Of a stretch of 39,421 nt of DNA, positions 2,687 to 36,257 are shown in pieces. This DNA comes from a virus. Under the pieces are notes generated by a model that made no database searches, was not told the DNA's origin, and saw only the letters and a list, made by a program, of their open reading frames with translations. The position numbers and the translations under genes are program-made. The stretch spans positions 1 to 39,421 of IMG/VR virus record IMGVR_UViG_3300038701_001484, one strand, 5' to 3'. How positions within the stretch are numbered: the stretch's first letter is position 1; the number at the start of each line of letters is the position of its first letter.

Positions 2687-2847
2687 GGTGGTTTGCGTCA
2701 CACGCTTTGTTCGTGGTCGGGGATTTGTTGAGCAAGCCGATGATGGCGTTCGACTGGGGGTGGATTTACCCCGCCTACAATCGCCTCATGGGATGGTCGT
2801 CGGAGATTCAAGGCGACAGCGAGCGCGGCCCTTGGAGCAAGCCATGA
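2683..2847 (+). CDS. Small conserved phage protein with WIYPAYNRLMGWS motif
   Basis: A 54-aa protein with a hydrophobic N-terminal half (FASHALFVVGDLLSKPMMAF) followed by WIYPAYNRLMGWS. Short proteins with a W-x-YP-x-YNRLM-x-WS pattern recur in temperate phages, without a known function. It is probably membrane-associated or amphipathic. Start ATG 2683 overlaps the previous stop (ATGA), and the gene ends overlapping ATG 2844. Confidence 0.65.
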   Translation: MRWFASHALFVVGDLLSKPMMAFDWGWIYPAYNRLMGWSSEIQGDSERGPWSKP

Positions 2848-3377
2848 AAGGCAAGCGCGTTGTCTGCCGGTCCTGCAAGTGGGACTCGCAAGTCAGGGTC
2901 AACACCAAGATTTGCCCCAAGTGCAAGGCTCCCGTGTCAGCTTATCGCCAGCCTGACGGACGCCACGCCCAGCCGGTTGACGACCGCATCAAGCCCACGC
3001 CGGAATTGGTGAAGAAACGCAAGGAGGGCTTTCGTGATGAGACGGTGGACACACTTCTTGCGCAAAACGTAATCGGCAATGAACAGGCGCAGGCGTTCGC
3101 CAGATACAGCCGGGCAAGGCAGAGGCTTTACGGCCCGGTCAATGCGAAGGTGAACGCGCTTCAGCCGATGATACCAGGCGGCGCAGAAGAATTACCAGAC
3201 GAAGCCATATTGGCAGCAAGGCGGGATTATGACGCTGGCCTTGACGCGATGGATTCACGCCAGAGCGCGGCGGTCTATCATCTGCTTTGCAGCCGGGTGG
3301 GTTATCTTGACGACCTGATAGCGGGTCTGGACGCGCTTTGTGAGGCGTATGGATTGCAGAAGGAAAAGGCAGCATGA
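2844..3377 (+). CDS. Zinc-ribbon protein with helical C-terminal domain
   Basis: A 177-aa protein. The N-terminus has CRSC (residues 8-11) and CPKC (about 24-27), a four-cysteine zinc ribbon. The rest is helical and resembles DUF6456-like domains (a long helix with NEQAQAFARYSRARQRLYG and a C-terminal LDALCEAYG helix). Start ATG 2844 is preferred over the longer frame from 2688, because the extra N-terminus is the shadow of the 2683 gene and ATG 2844 overlaps its stop. A DNA-binding or regulatory role is possible; no function is known. Confidence 0.65.
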   Translation: MKGKRVVCRSCKWDSQVRVNTKICPKCKAPVSAYRQPDGRHAQPVDDRIKPTPELVKKRKEGFRDETVDTLLAQNVIGNEQAQAFARYSRARQRLYGPVNAKVNALQPMIPGGAEELPDEAILAARRDYDAGLDAMDSRQSAAVYHLLCSRVGYLDDLIAGLDALCEAYGLQKEKAA

Positions 3378-3742
3378 CGGATTTGGTTTCACTGCCCGCG
3401 CCGGACCCGGATGAGGATATAGACCCGCCAGAGGTTCGTAGGTGGCAGGCGCTGTTCTATCTCTACACAGGGCTCACGCCGTGGGCGTATAAAATACATG
3501 GCGACCGCCGCCCACGTATGCCCTTGTGCAAGGGTGACAACGGTGAGGCGGACGAGTGGATTATGTGTTGTGGGTGCGTGCTTGACGGGCCGACAGGCGA
3601 AGAGTGGCTCAAGTCCGGCGCTGTTGCCGAGGGTGTAGATGAGCGCGGAAGGCGCTGCCTCATCGCAGGGCATGAGGGGGATTTGCAGCACATGATTACT
3701 TTGGCTTGGGAAGCGCTGTTGGAGAAGGAAAGAGCAGCATGA
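3374..3742 (+). CDS. Hypothetical protein, 122 aa, cysteine cluster
   Basis: Unrecognised acidic protein. The middle has IMCCGCVLDG plus further cysteines near residues 52 and 94, which could bind a metal. It has 4-base overlaps with both neighbours, so it belongs to the same coupled operon. No membrane segment or signal peptide is present. Confidence 0.65.
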   Translation: MTDLVSLPAPDPDEDIDPPEVRRWQALFYLYTGLTPWAYKIHGDRRPRMPLCKGDNGEADEWIMCCGCVLDGPTGEEWLKSGAVAEGVDERGRRCLIAGHEGDLQHMITLAWEALLEKERAA

Positions 3743-4092
3743 AAACGACAAGACGTGAATTTCTCGGCGGCGCTCTGGCGCTTGCTGTTGCAACGCAGGT
3801 TGATGCCTCCGGGCTGACCGCACCAACACTTTACGGAGACGGGGTGCATGATGATACGGAGGGGCTAGAGGCAGCAATGAACGGGCGACCGTTTTGGGCT
3901 GATGGGGAGTTGGTTGCGCCAGCACCCGGCGAAAAGGTTTATCTTCGCGGGGGGAGATTCAAAATCCACAGAACCGTTGAGGTCTGGTCAACAAACAGCA
4001 TTAATGGTCAAGGCGCGATCATACGACGCGGCGAGCCGTTTGTTGGTGAGCTTATGGTTCGCTTCCGGGGCGCGCATCCGGAGGCGGCGTGA
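3739..4092 (+). CDS. Tat-signal protein with pectate-lyase-like N-terminal motif
   Basis: A 117-aa protein starting at ATG 3739 (overlapping the previous stop). It begins with a twin-arginine signal (TTRREFLGG), a hydrophobic stretch and VDAS as a possible signal peptidase site near residue 20. The mature part has GDGVHDDTEGLEAAMNGRPF, the motif that opens pectate-lyase-type beta-helix proteins, then about 50 residues of beta-rich sequence (KVYLRGGRFKIHRTVEVWS) and stops. It is far shorter than a beta-helix enzyme, so it is a truncated or minimal member. Export of a folded phage protein to the periplasm by Tat is the direct inference. It is the last gene of the rightward early operon. Confidence 0.75.
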   Translation: MKTTRREFLGGALALAVATQVDASGLTAPTLYGDGVHDDTEGLEAAMNGRPFWADGELVAPAPGEKVYLRGGRFKIHRTVEVWSTNSINGQGAIIRRGEPFVGELMVRFRGAHPEAA

Positions 4093-4111
4093 AAAAACTT
4101 CGCGCCCCGTC

Positions 4112-4141
4112 TTGACACTCTAGCTTCTTTGAAGCTATTGT
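4112..4141 (+). promoter_or_regulatory. Strong promoter, TTGACA - 18 bp - TATTGT
   Basis: -35 TTGACA at 4112-4117 is a perfect sigma70 hexamer, and -10 TATTGT is at 4136-4141 after 18 bp. Transcription would start near 4148, after the last early gene and before the structured leader. It is the best promoter match noted in the window. Confidence 0.7.
4121..4137. promoter_or_regulatory. Dyad operator inside the 4112 promoter
   Basis: TAGCTTC-TTT-GAAGCTA is a perfect 7-bp inverted repeat filling the -35/-10 spacer. Bound protein would block polymerase. It differs from the GTAAC...GTTAC operators near the repressor, so a second regulator, phage or host, may act here. As RNA it would lie upstream of the start and not be transcribed. 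Confidence 0.55.
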
Positions 4142-4186
4142 GCCGGTAGAAATGCACAGTCGATAATTGTGCTAGGAGGCAAGCAG

Positions 4187-4264
4187 GTGAACGACGATTG
4201 GATTTGGCCGGTTCACGGCGATGCCGAAGGCGCTCGCGATCTGACTGGCGAAACGGATATTTGA
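4187..4264 (+). CDS. 25-codon leader ORF behind a perfect Shine-Dalgarno
   Basis: A GTG start at 4187 lies seven bases after AGGAGG (4174-4179), and the frame stops with TGA at 4262-4264. The product would be an acidic peptide with two tryptophans (DDWIWPVHGD near the start). It is the first possible reading frame on the transcript from the 4112 promoter and ends just before the first hairpin, a layout like translational leader peptides. No run of one codon is seen to suggest amino-acid attenuation. Confidence 0.45.
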   Translation: MNDDWIWPVHGDAEGARDLTGETDI

Positions 4265-4525
4265 ACACAGCCCCTAAGTTCCGTGAGGGGCATGGGCAAG
4301 AGATTGGCGGCAAGAAGGGGGTGGTGCACAGCCCGAGCCCAAAGCCCGTGTTCCTAGCCGGGACCGCCAATACTAACACCGCCTGATCAGCGGTTAGGGC
4401 CACAACCGAGGCGGGATGAAAGCCCCGTCCTTCGCTTTCGAGCGTTAAAGGCGTGCTGGCGTCTGGCAAATCCAGCGGCCCAAAAATTGTTGAAAACAGG
4501 TGTCGCATTTCTTGCCTCATCTGGG

Positions 4526-4555
4526 CGCCGTCCTTCGGGGCGGCGTTTCTCTTTT
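4526..4555 (+). terminator. Intrinsic terminator before the late operon
   Basis: The stem CGCCGTCC (4526-4533) and GGGCGGCG (4538-4545), with a TTCG loop and one G-T pair, is followed by TTTCTCTTTT (4546-4555). It would stop the 4112 transcript about 400 nt from its start. Confidence 0.8.
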
Positions 4556-4725
4556 CAGTTTGGCCTCACCACTTTGGCTTAACCCTTAACAAGCCCCGCC
4601 TCGCAACCGGGTGATGCAGGCCGATCCTTTCCCCCGCAACCGCGAACAACCCGAAGAGAGCGCACCTATACGGCAGCGCATACTTACCAATGGGCGGTTA
4701 GCGGGGGTTCATCCTTGGAGATGCC
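4556..4725 (+). other. Non-coding stretch between terminator and first late gene
   Basis: No gene or clear promoter is seen in these 170 bases. Purine-poor tracts (CTTTCCCCCGC) and short repeats of the form GCGCA...TATACGGCAGCGCATAC are present. The position ahead of the packaging genes makes it a possible place for a cos or pac site, but no family signature was recognised. CTTGGAG at 4714-4720 serves as the ribosome site for the gene at 4726. Confidence 0.4.
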
Positions 4726-4971
4726 ATGTCTGACGGTGAGACGCTATCCCCGTCAGAAGTGGCCAGCCTTATGGAATCCGCGACGGCGCACAACAAGGCC
4801 GCTCGCAGGCAAACAGCACTAGAGGCGGCGTTGCTCTGCTACGGCATAGGCCCTGACTGCCCGATGAAACTTGAAAAGGCGGATCAGGACGGCGCGCTAA
4901 GGCTCGCTGACCGCATGGCCCGCTTTCTTGAAGGCGAGATTCCTGCCCGTTTGGAGGCTGTAGATGCTTAA
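4726..4971 (+). CDS. Small hypothetical protein, 81 aa, first late gene
   Basis: Helical acidic protein with no recognised family. It starts at ATG 4726 after TTGGAG and overlaps the start of the LamG-like gene at 4964. Its place at the head of the late operon suggests a virion or packaging accessory protein, but nothing in the sequence shows it. Confidence 0.65.
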   Translation: MSDGETLSPSEVASLMESATAHNKAARRQTALEAALLCYGIGPDCPMKLEKADQDGALRLADRMARFLEGEIPARLEAVDA

Positions 4972-5797
4972 CACGCTGTCCGGTCTCTCGACGCTATCGA
5001 CCTTCGGCGGGGATGGTGGTGGCGGCGCTGCTGGCTATTCATGGACGAATAGCGAGGGTTCAGACTTCGAGGCGCAGGCCGATGGGACCGGCTGGGATGA
5101 TACGCTTCGCGGCGACATTGACCAGCTCATTTCGGACCTGAAATCCGGCCAGATAAACGGCTCGAATGTCTATTCCGGCTTTGATCGCATCCTGCTTATG
5201 GACCTTCCGAACGAAGCGGATTCTCTGCGCTATCTCAATGCGCCGACTCTCACGGCCACGAATGTTTCGGCCACGTCCCACACGGCGAATCAGGGCTTCA
5301 CTGGCGATGGGACAGCGGATTATATCGACACCGGCTGGGACCCGTCAAATGACGGTAGCCAATACACGCAGAACAGCGCGTCTCTGGGTGTGTGGGTCCG
5401 CACGGCGCAAACGCTGTCTTCCCGGTCCTATACGGGGTCCGGCTCTCAAGCGGATATTATTTACGGAACCACAACAGGAAACCCGTTCAGGGTTGCGGGG
5501 CCAAACGGCGGCGGTGCTGTTGTGGCGTCAACGGCGATCAGCTCGGCGACGGGTTTGCTGGGTGTTAACCGCTCTGGTGCGTCTGCCACGCAAAACTACT
5601 TAAACGGGACGCAAGAAACGACAGGGGGCGGACCCTCGGCGTCGCCGGACGGTTTAGACATCAGGATACTAGACGGCGGCGGCAAGTCAGACGGCCAAGT
5701 CTCCATCTGGTTTGTAGGCCGCTCTTCCACCGCCGATGAATGGGCAGACATTCACGACGCATTCGACCGTTACCGCACTGCACGCGAAGCGGCTTAA
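4964..5797 (+). CDS. LamG / concanavalin-like domain protein
   Basis: A 277-aa protein. A helical N-terminal part (about 50-95, DIDQLISDLKSG and DRILLMDLPNEADSLRYLN) precedes a beta-rich domain with GFTGDGTADYIDTGWDPSN, SASLGVWVRTAQ, VNRSGASATQNYLNG and a closing helix SSTADEWADIHDAFDRYRTA. This layout matches phage proteins with a concanavalin/LamG-like fold that sit on the virion or bind glycans. It lies between the leader region and the terminase, so a capsid decoration or receptor-related role is possible. The enzyme or ligand is unknown. Confidence 0.65.
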   Translation: MLNTLSGLSTLSTFGGDGGGGAAGYSWTNSEGSDFEAQADGTGWDDTLRGDIDQLISDLKSGQINGSNVYSGFDRILLMDLPNEADSLRYLNAPTLTATNVSATSHTANQGFTGDGTADYIDTGWDPSNDGSQYTQNSASLGVWVRTAQTLSSRSYTGSGSQADIIYGTTTGNPFRVAGPNGGGAVVASTAISSATGLLGVNRSGASATQNYLNGTQETTGGGPSASPDGLDIRILDGGGKSDGQVSIWFVGRSSTADEWADIHDAFDRYRTAREAA

Positions 5798-5811: not shown

Positions 5812-6132
5812 ATGGGCAAGGCAATGATTGTTCAGTTCAAGGCTGTCGGGGCCGGAAGCCCCAAGCAGGCGCTTGACTTGGGCGTTGTTCACAAAGACGG
5901 GCTCGCGCCAGATGTCATCTCAACCAGCGCGTCCGTCGTCAACACGGACCTTGATAGCGACACGGTGGCTGTCCTGATCAGCGCGGAGACCGCCATTCGC
6001 GTTGACGTAGGTGTTGGGGTCACGGCTGACGAGGATAACTCGCTCAAGATAGCAGCAGACGCAAGCCGGTCCTTCGCAATTCCTGTGGGCTCGCCGGAAA
6101 CATGGCGCGTCTCAATTATTGATCCTGCGTAG
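5812..6132 (+). CDS. Hypothetical beta-rich protein, 106 aa
   Basis: Unrecognised small protein rich in Val, Ser and Asp with alternating hydrophobic residues (DTVAVLISAETAIRVDVGVG), consistent with a beta sandwich. Start ATG 5812 follows AGGTAAG. It sits between the LamG-like gene and the terminase small subunit. The composition fits a minor virion protein; function is unknown. Confidence 0.6.
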   Translation: MGKAMIVQFKAVGAGSPKQALDLGVVHKDGLAPDVISTSASVVNTDLDSDTVAVLISAETAIRVDVGVGVTADEDNSLKIAADASRSFAIPVGSPETWRVSIIDPA

Positions 6133-6142
6133 GGCGCAAGCA

Positions 6143-6547
6143 ATGACTGGCCGCCCGTCCAAATACGACCCAGCGTTCTGTGACCGCGTCGAGGAGCTGG
6201 GTAGGCAGGGCGCAAGTGTTTTGGAGTGCGCGCTTGAGCTGGGCGTCTGCAAGCAAACCCTGTTCAATTGGCAGGAAGAACACCCGGAGTTTCTAGACGC
6301 GCTAACGCGCGCGAGGGCTCATCGCCAGGTTTGGTGGGAGCGGGTGCACCGCAAATGTGCGCAGAGCGGCGAGGGCAACGCGGCCTCTATTCAGTTCGGG
6401 TTGAAGAACATTGCGCCAGAGGACTACGCCGACAAGGTGGACCTGAATCACGGGGGGCAGGCTGACAACCCCATGAGGGCCGTCACCCGAATTGAGCTGG
6501 TAGGGGTGCGCCCGGACGATGACGACGCTCAAGATACAGATACCTGA
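6143..6547 (+). CDS. terS: Terminase small subunit
   Basis: A 134-aa protein with an N-terminal HTH: MTGRPSKYDPAF, ECALELGVCKQTLFNWQEEHPEFLDALTRAR, then AASIQFGLKNIAPEDYADK. This is the usual terminase small-subunit pattern, which recognises phage DNA and positions the large subunit. ATG 6143 is chosen over 6119 because the family starts with the GRPSKY motif. It overlaps the large-subunit gene by 29 bases, as is common. Confidence 0.9.
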   Translation: MTGRPSKYDPAFCDRVEELGRQGASVLECALELGVCKQTLFNWQEEHPEFLDALTRARAHRQVWWERVHRKCAQSGEGNAASIQFGLKNIAPEDYADKVDLNHGGQADNPMRAVTRIELVGVRPDDDDAQDTDT

Positions 6548-7847
6548 AAAGCTAGTCTGGGTATTCGAGGGCGAGGCCAGGTATCGCGGCGCTTACGGAG
6601 GGCGTGGATCGGCAAAGACCAGAACGTTCGCCAAGATGGCGGCGGTCATGGGCAGGGTTTGTGCAGAGGCAGGCGAAACCGGCATCGTTCTTTGTGGCCG
6701 GGAGTATATGAACTCTCTTGATGAGTCGTCTATGGCGGAGGTCAAGGCGGCAATCGCGTCAGAGCCGTGGCTTGCAGAGTATTATGACGTTGGGGAGCGA
6801 TACATACGCACGGTCTGCGGGCGGGTTGAATTCAAATTCGCGGGGCTGCGGCACAACCTTGATAGCATCAAGTCGAAATCCCGCATCCTGATCCTTTGGG
6901 TGGATGAGGCGGAGCCGGTCAGTGAGAAGGCTTGGGTAAAGATTATCCCGACTGTGCGTGAGCAGGGCTCGGAAATATGGGTGACGTGGAACCCGGAGCG
7001 AAAGGCCAGCGCGACCAATAAGCGGTTCAGGATCGATTGCAAGGGCGACCCGGCATTCCGCATTGTGCAGATGAATTACCGGGACAATCCCTGGTTCCCC
7101 GACGTTCTTGAGCAAGAGCGGCTGCGGGACATGGAGAAGAGGCCCGAGCAATACGAGCATATATGGGAAGGCGATTACGCCACGGTTATTGAGGGCGCTT
7201 ACTACGCGGAGTCGCTTAGTGCGGCTCGCAAGGATGGGCGCATTGGCAGGGTCAGGGCGGACCCGTTGCTGCCGGTCTATTCGGTTGATGACATCGGCGG
7301 CGCTGGCGCAAAGGCTGACGCCTATTCAAAATGGATCGTCCAGTTTGTCGGCAAAGAAATACGGATTCTTGATCACTACACGTCGCAGGGCCAGACGCTT
7401 GATTTTCACGTAAACTGGATGCGCGACAATGGGTGGGAGCGCGGCAAGATCGTTCTCCCGCATGATGGCGTCAACACCAACAACGTCACGGGCAAGCGTT
7501 ACGAGGACCACTGGCGTGATGCCGGGTTTGATGTTGACGTAATCCCCAACCAGGGGCGCGGAGCTGCAATGCAGCGCGTGCAGGCGGCCCGCCGCGTGTT
7601 CCCGAATATCTGGTTTAATGAAGACACCACCGAAGCGGGGCGCGAGTCCCTTGGCCACTACCACGAGAAGCGTAGCGAAGACCGCGATATCGGGCTTGGC
7701 CCGGAGCACGATTGGTCAAGCCATGACGCTGACGCTTTCGGGCTTATGGCTGTCTTCTACGAGGAACGCCTAGGCGTGAATAAGGATTCTGCTGGATGGA
7801 AAGCAAAGCGAAAGAGCCGCAGTCCGAAGGCATGGATGGGGGCGTAG
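6519..7847 (+). CDS. terL: Terminase large subunit (PBSX / Terminase_3 type)
   Basis: A 442-aa packaging motor. Walker A is GGRGSAKT at residues 27-34, Walker B ILILWVDE at 123-130, and a coupling motif VTWN follows at about 155-158. The C-terminal nuclease half shows acidic clusters VDDIGG (256-261), LPHDG (313-317) and SSHDADAFG near the end, consistent with an RNase H-like nuclease. The length is normal for the family. It translocates DNA into proheads using ATP and cuts at headful or cos ends; which mode is used cannot be read here. Confidence 0.95.
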   Translation: MTTLKIQIPEKLVWVFEGEARYRGAYGGRGSAKTRTFAKMAAVMGRVCAEAGETGIVLCGREYMNSLDESSMAEVKAAIASEPWLAEYYDVGERYIRTVCGRVEFKFAGLRHNLDSIKSKSRILILWVDEAEPVSEKAWVKIIPTVREQGSEIWVTWNPERKASATNKRFRIDCKGDPAFRIVQMNYRDNPWFPDVLEQERLRDMEKRPEQYEHIWEGDYATVIEGAYYAESLSAARKDGRIGRVRADPLLPVYSVDDIGGAGAKADAYSKWIVQFVGKEIRILDHYTSQGQTLDFHVNWMRDNGWERGKIVLPHDGVNTNNVTGKRYEDHWRDAGFDVDVIPNQGRGAAMQRVQAARRVFPNIWFNEDTTEAGRESLGHYHEKRSEDRDIGLGPEHDWSSHDADAFGLMAVFYEERLGVNKDSAGWKAKRKSRSPKAWMGA

Positions 7848-12409: not shown

Positions 12410-12435
12410 GGGGCGGTCTTCGGGCCGCCCCTTTT
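12410..12435 (+). terminator. Intrinsic terminator after the capsid genes
   Basis: GGGGCGGTC (12410-12418), TTCG loop, GGCCGCCCC (12423-12431), then TTTTCTTT. It lies between the capsid-associated gene and the tail-hub genes and would lower expression of the distal late genes relative to coat. Confidence 0.85.
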
Positions 12436-34887: not shown

Positions 34888-35462
34888 TGGTCTTCCTCCA
34901 CGGGCTGCAAGCGGTACTTTTTGCCCTTCACGGTGATGATTTCACCGGAGCAGCCGCCGGGCTTTTCAGGACGGAAGCCAAACACCTCCTCGAACACGTC
35001 AATGTCGAAATTGGGCAGCTTGAATGTCTTCGCCCGGTCTTCGGGGCTGGCCTTGTCCCATGCCTCGCGCCACGCATCTTGAAGACTGCCGTGGGCTTTG
35101 AGATAGCCGCCTGCTGTCGCGTAGGACGGATAAGCGCCCTTTTCCTTGTCGGTCATTTTCGACTCTGGCACCCATTGCGTAAGTTGTGCGTAAAGCCATT
35201 CCGGCTTGTCAGCGTCGATCCAGTCTTGACGCTTGGCGGGCTTGTTGAAGATCAGACAGTCTTCCGGCGCAATGCTGTTGCAGTAGCCGGTGTTGTAGTC
35301 GCCGGTGTTGTAGTCGCCGGTGTTGCGGTTGCCGGTGTTGTAGTCGCCGGTGTTGTAGTCGCCGGTGTTGCGGTTGCCGGTGTTGTAGTCGCCGGTGTTG
35401 CAGTAGCCGGTGTTGTAGTAGCCGGTGTTGTAGTAGCCGGTGTTGCCCTTATTGTCGGTCAT
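34884..35462 (-). CDS. Pentapeptide-repeat protein
   Basis: A 192-aa protein. Residues 6-60 are eleven units of the NTGxx type (NTGDY, NTGYC, NTGNR), giving a right-handed quadrilateral beta-helix. A conserved globular part follows (DCLIFNKPAKRQDW, TQWVPESKMTDKEKGAYPSYATAGGYLKAHGS, LPNFDIDVFEEVFGF), which I recall from pentapeptide-repeat proteins of unrelated phages. The C-terminal 25 residues are the module shared with the next gene. Pentapeptide proteins can mimic DNA, but this one is short. ATG 35462 lies in the operon with a 14-base overlap upstream. Confidence 0.75.
   Translation of the reverse strand: MTDNKGNTGYYNTGYYNTGYCNTGDYNTGNRNTGDYNTGDYNTGNRNTGDYNTGDYNTGYCNSIAPEDCLIFNKPAKRQDWIDADKPEWLYAQLTQWVPESKMTDKEKGAYPSYATAGGYLKAHGSLQDAWREAWDKASPEDRAKTFKLPNFDIDVFEEVFGFRPEKPGGCSGEIITVKGKKYRLQPVEEDQ
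35275..35450. repeat. 15-bp tandem repeats encoding the pentapeptide units
   Basis: GTAGTCGCCGGTGTT-like units repeat about eleven times in tandem within the gene above, differing at two or three bases. Length changes by slippage would add or remove whole pentapeptides without frameshift. This is not a CRISPR: there are no spacers. Confidence 0.9.
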
Positions 35463-35640: not shown

Positions 35641-36257
35641 TAGGCTGCCCCCCTTTTCAGCTTCGCAACTTTTGCAAAATGAACCTTGGCCAGCCCGATC
35701 AGGAGGCGGTGAAGTGTTCTCGCCTCACCTGCCGGGAGCCCTTCATCCTTGAAGCGGGCAGCGCCGTTTTTCTTCCACCAATCAAGGTCGTGATATTCAC
35801 ACCCGACTCGGATCATGGTGTCCGTGATTGTGACGGGGTATGGGAAGCCAATTACGTTGACAGGCGAGACCCTCGCATTGCCGTAGACCCTCGCATCGCC
35901 GTAGACCCTCGCATCGCCGCAGACCTCCGCATCGCCGTAGACCCTCGCATCGCCGCAGACCTCCGCATTGCCGTAGACCCTCGCATCGCCGTAGACCCTC
36001 GCATCGCCGCAGACCCTCGCATCGCCGCAGACCCTCGCATTGCCGTAGACCCTCGCATCGCCGCAGACCTCCGCATCGCCGTAGACCCACGCATTGCCTT
36101 CATGCGAAAGGTTCTTTTCGGCCTCAATCCAGCCTCCGACATCGCCAGCCGACACGCCAATCGCGGCAATTGAAACAAGCGCGCGAATTTGATGAAGCGT
36201 CCGGCCAAAAAGTTCTTTCGTCTCGCCGGTAAACTCATATTTCTTTTGATCGGCCAT
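35640..36257 (-). CDS. Hexapeptide-repeat (left-handed beta-helix) protein
   Basis: A 205-aa protein. The N-terminus (ELFGRTLHQIRALVSIAAIG, GDVGGWIEAEKNLSHEGNAWV) is conserved in phage hexapeptide proteins. Residues about 55-130 are DARVYG or DARVCG units, thirteen in all, expected to form a left-handed parallel beta-helix. After these comes PVTITDTMIRVGCEYHDLDWW and a basic C-terminus. ATG 36257 has GGGAGG seven bases upstream; the preceding GTG is alternative. There are no acyltransferase catalytic residues, so a binding or scaffold role is likely. Confidence 0.75.
   Translation of the reverse strand: MADQKKYEFTGETKELFGRTLHQIRALVSIAAIGVSAGDVGGWIEAEKNLSHEGNAWVYGDAEVCGDARVYGNARVCGDARVCGDARVYGDARVYGNAEVCGDARVYGDAEVCGDARVYGDARVYGNARVSPVNVIGFPYPVTITDTMIRVGCEYHDLDWWKKNGAARFKDEGLPAGEARTLHRLLIGLAKVHFAKVAKLKRGAA
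35868..36090. repeat. 18-bp tandem repeats encoding the hexapeptide units
   Basis: Units of the form ACCCTCGCATCGCCGTAG alternate with CCGCAG/CCGTAG and CTCGCA/CTCCGCA variants over about 220 bases. Each is one hexapeptide codon block, so copy-number change keeps the frame. They alternate Tyr and Cys at the fifth position. Confidence 0.9.

Follow-up and report, generated by a model that had tools for sequence, protein, structure and literature searches.

A probable late-gene switch of the lambda pR'-tR' type at the early/late border of a P22-like phage

How does a temperate phage in which no Q gene is recognized open a late operon of ~22 kb, and what is the role of the stretch without ordinary genes that stands before it? 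We addressed this question in IMG/VR record IMGVR_UViG_3300038701_001484, taken over its full 39,421 nucleotides (hereafter, the window). The original prediction combined two ideas, a lambdoid-style late promoter followed by an early terminator and a leader that, as RNA or through its peptide, may itself control entry to the operon. The position at the early/late border and the layout in related phages agree with the former, and we consider it probable that the stretch is a late-gene control unit of the lambda pR'-tR' type, which would need antitermination to be passed; the latter idea fared poorly, for reasons given below.

The proteins of the 39.4-kb record identify it as a P22-like temperate podophage, with recognizable products for replication initiation, RuvC, integrase, a repressor-like protein, and TerL, together with a P22-type portal, scaffold, head protein, tail and injection proteins, and an M15 peptidase. 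The nearest named phages by TerL come mostly from alphaproteobacterial hosts (Sulfitobacter phages pCB2047-A/C, NYA-2014a, and phiGT1; Paracoccus KLEP18-1; Rhizobium RHph_Y1_10; Bradyrhizobium ppBeUSDA76-2), the single closest match is listed under Microcystis, and TerL identity to the closest IMG/VR relatives is 64%. If the record is circularly permuted, the early genes run rightward from ~37.7 kb across the record end to 4092. Within the early region, tandem 16-nt repeats of GGCGAAATCCGCCAGT at 907–945 lie inside the replication-initiator gene and are likely origin iterons (compare lambda O), and 2258–2686 encodes a protein of the HslV/proteasome-like peptidase family. The short last early gene (3739–4092) carries a twin-arginine-like signal and a stretch resembling a phage tailspike N terminus, which is apparently misplaced. 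Elsewhere, leftward genes contain tandem repeats of 15/45 nt (35276–35445, with an extreme folding score, z −14) and of 18 nt (35867–36098), both of which code for repetitive protein segments.

The features described from here on lie on the plus strand unless stated otherwise. All late genes (4726–26603) are read from that strand and comprise small genes, a TerS-like gene (6119–6547), TerL (6519–7847), portal, scaffold, major head protein, tail and injection genes, tailspike, M15 peptidase, and exonuclease. The gap of 633 bp that separates the last early gene from this operon (4093–4725) holds no ordinary gene, as had been predicted: every ORF in it other than the 25-codon frame discussed below has a negative codon score, and an antisense ORF of 170 aa at 4008–4520, also negative by codon score, was rejected as noncoding.

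The gap opens with a sigma70 promoter, TTGACA-18-TATTGT (4112–4141), in which the −35 element is perfect and the overall match is 10/12, just as originally described. It is the sole plus-strand site of such quality in 39.4 kb; since ~0.8 sites of this score are expected per strand by chance, its weight comes from its position, 20 bp past the last early gene. The predicted transcription start is at ~4148, and no second strong plus-strand promoter was found up to 6000. The record's best promoter match (TTGACG-18-TATAAT, 11/12) is on the minus strand at 5348–5319, inside a late gene and directed leftward toward the leader; it could be an antisense promoter or a chance match in coding sequence. 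The spacer of the late promoter contains a perfect dyad, TAGCTTC-TTT-GAAGCTA (4121–4137), whose 7-bp arms make it slightly larger than first reported; it touches the −10 element, is unique in the window, and has an equal in ~0.5% of random stretches of the same length. We regard it as a candidate binding site, which could be an operator or occupy the position of a Q-binding element; a shared operator was rejected, as a second convincing copy is absent. Q proteins bind between −35 and −10 and are loaded while polymerase pauses at a −10-like sequence (PMC6606751). Such a sequence, GATAAT (5/6), occurs here at 4163–4168, about +15 to +20 of the predicted transcript, and by comparison with published systems (PMC6606751, PMC9371919, PMC9378689) is a candidate sigma-dependent pause element, the −10-like element of HK022 putL being at +23 to +28 (PMC9378689). 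Most of the relatives examined by the same test have no −10-like element after the promoter. A GGTAG near 4145 was considered as an RfaH ops-like site and dropped because it is too short and a NusG-like gene is absent.

The predicted intrinsic terminator is indeed present between this promoter and the late genes, at 4523–4556, as a hairpin GGGCGCCGUCC-UUCG-GGGCGGCGUUU (4523–4548) followed by a T-rich tail. The record has two strong GC-rich UUCG terminators, of which the other (12410–12431) lies within the late operon, past the head genes, so that there are at least two terminators for late transcription to overcome. The untranslated stretch from the first terminator to the first late gene (4557–4725) contains an inverted repeat (4631–4643/4694–4707), and its folding is not significant (z −0.8). 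Based on these features, we propose that host RNA polymerase would start at ~4148 from the consensus −35 promoter and make a leader of ~400 nt encoding a 25-residue peptide, and we infer that this transcript ends in vivo at 4523–4556. A phage factor, probably loading at the promoter by way of the spacer dyad and the early −10-like pause element, would then make polymerase terminator-resistant, allowing expression of the late genes at 4726–26603; the same modified polymerase would also get past the terminator at 12410.

The leader contains an AGGAGG Shine–Dalgarno sequence (4174–4179; one of seven AGGAGG on the plus strand of the window) before a 25-codon ORF with a GTG start at 4187 (4187–4264; VNDDWIWPVHGDAEGARDLTGETDI), as the original prediction had it. 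Its codon score of 14.3 bits reflects window-like codon usage; 0.05% of antisense or out-of-frame segments score this high, vs. 7.6% of true in-frame segments, and by this measure the ORF looks truly coding. No similar peptide was found in phage records. During step-wise folding of the nascent RNA, AGGAGG pairs successively with 4270–4275, with 4511–4518, and with the 5' arm of the terminator (4527–4534), the last before the terminator forms. Since the 3' end of the leader can pair with the ribosome site, translation of the ORF is probably confined to nascent RNA; pairing of this site with the terminator 5' arm in midtranscription would make coupling of translation to termination possible.

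Structure in the leader RNA itself is possible, a cautious reading that reflects mild folding scores and a long-range pair that shuffled sequences also produce. The leader (4148–4522) has a predicted energy of −147 kcal/mol (z −2.2, equaled in 2/120 shuffles), and 160-nt windows across 4161–4481 fold unremarkably. The best-supported domain, predicted as one long irregular hairpin at 4379–4503, has z −3.0 and is matched by 1/120 shuffles, and the first hairpin, GCACAGU/AUUGUGC (4154–4172), has a predicted pair probability of 0.98. Several hairpins are indeed predicted, in an RNA that folds just mildly better than its shuffles. Similarly, the claimed 8-bp long-range pair exists, with a 5' strand at 4176–4183 that overlaps the Shine–Dalgarno sequence and a 3' strand at 4511–4518 immediately 5' of the terminator (predicted probability about 1.0), yet its length is within chance, since 23/200 shuffles contain a long-range pair of at least 8 bp.

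Searches for relatives of the leader were negative throughout. No DNA homologs were found in phages, where the sole match is the terminator hairpin; in plasmids and E. coli genomes; among 58 TerL- or portal-bearing loci; or in IMG/VR by an exact 18-mer scan. Using the antisense ORF as bait recovered no relatives of the region, and IMG/VR yielded none for the neighboring segments 2688–3377 and 4964–5797. A covariance search, which had been suggested as a check on the RNA, was run with a single-sequence model of 4379–4503 against 55 sources and matched only itself. The leader region contains no tRNA or tmRNA and no Rfam match above the gathering threshold, with weak matches limited to the terminator hairpin.

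Because the leader sequence is not conserved, we compared the relatives by layout, using 29 distinct representatives of the TerL family (window included) and the 2.5 kb upstream of TerL in each. A terminator directly before the late genes is present in 7/29, this phage included, and the density of strong terminators is 0.112 per kb in the 2.5 kb before TerL vs. 0.062 downstream; the same test finds none before TerL in the other 22, for some of which the upstream sequence is insufficient. Six of the seven terminators have a TTGACN promoter at most 700 nt upstream, vs. 14.8% of random positions, and three (in the window, L028, and L037) have a strict TTGACA promoter with 16–18 spacing, vs. 1.3% at random, a tally that lends support rather than serving as a clean test, because it includes the window and was designed after some of the cases had been seen. 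On reading by hand, the promoter of L037 overlaps the end of the upstream gene and is followed by a ~130-nt leader, a terminator, and terS; in L013, a TTGACC site precedes two terminators; the leader is short in L015 and L011, and in L028 it is 600 nt long and encloses a GIY-YIG gene; in EBPR podovirus 2, a TTGACA site and several terminators, one of them annotated, come right after gp13. Leaders vary among phages from tens of bases to about 600, without shared sequence, and the long leader of the window falls at one end of the range. The counts given above indicate that the promoter–leader–terminator unit recurs in the family, with unrelated sequence, and this recurrence is the strongest evidence for a late switch. 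In L041, a tRNA-like sequence was noted by eye at 3754–3815, in the gap before the late genes.

If a protein factor acts at this unit, which gene encodes it? As the original prediction stated, no Q-like gene is recognized: searches of the record for the Q families PF06530 and PF03589 gave no match. Q families lack mutual sequence similarity (PMC7171158), so an analogue can be missed, and the genes preceding the late promoter in relatives likewise belong to unnamed families; for both reasons, the absence of a Q match is weak evidence for an RNA mechanism. Nor does the window contain a NusG-like protein (phrog_6386; the same search was positive in 14/14 control genomes). The first candidate for a late regulator analogous to Q is a putative zinc-ribbon plus helical protein (2844–3377; CxxC...CxxC), a choice made solely on its position and zinc motif; its zinc-ribbon matches are weak and below the cut-off. 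Its single-sequence AlphaFold model is too poor for a fold search, and its placement in a DUF6456-like family (Bradyrhizobium phage ppBeUSDA76-2, L008), suggested by eye, was abandoned when hhalign was not significant. In L037, L013, and L030, the genes before the late promoter look Q21-like at first sight; this reading was left unused, as they have no Pfam or PHROG antiterminator match. The Sulfitobacter phages carry a NusG/RfaH-like antiterminator gene directly before an equivalent 510-nt gap, from which it follows that antitermination at the early/late border exists in the family. The stretches concerned, in which the gene stands just before the late leader, are 7139–8270 in L075 and 38671–39498 in L084. 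The leaders of pCB2047-A and phiGT1 are 81–83% conserved at their start and 3' end and have in common a GGTAGC similar to a portion of the RfaH ops sequence (GGCGGTAGCGTG).

Could the leader dispense with such a protein? That the leader itself, as a ~400-nt structured RNA and/or through translation of its ORF, passes polymerase through the terminator without Q seems to us distinctly unlikely. Its purely RNA-based form, in which the folded nascent RNA binds RNA polymerase in the manner of HK022 put and no dedicated protein is involved, we judge very unlikely. This form would explain why a known antiterminator gene is not found in the record and why the leader is far longer than in most relatives, and the domain at 4379–4503 does fold better than 119/120 shuffles; however, an RNA that is always active would leave the terminator purposeless without a further signal, HK022 put is ~70 nt with two stem-loops and serves early operons (PMC9378689), and here the fold is mildly significant, the long-range pair is within chance, homologs that could show covariation were not found, and relatives show the same layout without this RNA. 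The proposal of an antiterminator RNA is not supported. Also quite improbable is translation-coupled attenuation, in which terminator formation would depend on ribosomes translating the 25-codon ORF, given that the ribosome site can pair with the leader 3' end or transiently with the 5' arm of the terminator. Such attenuation draws on a coding-like ORF with a perfect Shine–Dalgarno sequence and on the step-wise pairing of AGGAGG with 4527–4534 before the terminator forms, but a stable antiterminator is absent, because the full terminator prevails once folding is complete and can coexist with the long-range pair, itself within chance; moreover, the ORF has no run of one regulatory codon.

Two further readings remove the switch altogether. 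The stretch might produce a free small RNA, a peptide, or both, with a separate function (host takeover, antisense, or lysogeny), the late operon being served by another promoter downstream or by the early operon, and we consider this reading unlikely. A promoter-to-terminator unit of ~400 nt with a clean end is what a free RNA would look like, and the coding-like ORF might encode a small protein; on the other hand, the plus strand up to 6000 lacks a second strong promoter, Rfam matches are absent, and the corresponding unit in relatives, unrelated in sequence, is easier to reconcile with a switch than with a conserved free RNA. It is highly improbable that the arrangement is a chance composition, namely, a decayed gap in which a terminator of the early operon sits beside a promoter, a dyad, and an ORF that are all spurious: taken alone, the promoter score is expected 0.8 times per strand and the local structure is mild, but one gap joins a coding-like ORF (0.05%), a good terminator, and a layout that recurs in relatives.

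The favored reading, a late switch that needs an antitermination factor, can be placed beside several known systems. As in lambda pR'-tR' (lambda Q, 21Q, and Q82), the unit sits between early and late genes and has a constitutive-looking promoter, a terminator before the late operon, a candidate binding element in the −35/−10 spacer, and a −10-like sequence, a candidate pause element, early in the transcript; unlike that system, the record has no PF06530 or PF03589 match, the leader is ~400 nt with a coding-like mini-ORF, the −10-like element is further downstream than usual, and the repeat in the spacer is inverted, in contrast to the direct repeat of the 21Q site (PMC6606751). AlpA follows the same plan as Q and passes one downstream terminator (PMC9371919), and its target, the alpB promoter of Pseudomonas aeruginosa, combines a promoter-located element, a pause element, and one intrinsic terminator (PMC9371919), much like the arrangement proposed for the window; here, by contrast, the unit precedes a phage late operon, a homolog of AlpA was not identified, the pause-like element is further downstream than at AlpA's promoter, and the AlpA element is a single direct GGGACG. 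HK022 put is likewise a phage leader RNA with terminators downstream of it, the analogy drawn in the original prediction, but nothing comparable to its two stem-loops was identified among the several hairpins predicted here, and no relation in sequence was detected. The Sulfitobacter phages pCB2047-A/C, NYA-2014a, and phiGT1 (TerL 47–60% identity) also have a long noncoding gap before the late genes; theirs directly follows a transcription-elongation-type gene, the counterpart of which is absent from the window, and the leader sequences are unrelated.

Late-gene switches are known in detail from a few enterobacterial phages. In this P22-like lineage, the layout stays constant while the sequence, the leader length, and the adjoining gene differ between phages. 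This pattern suggests an exchange of unrelated antitermination factors at a single fixed position in the genome, and it supplies candidates that can be tested as new factors of this kind.
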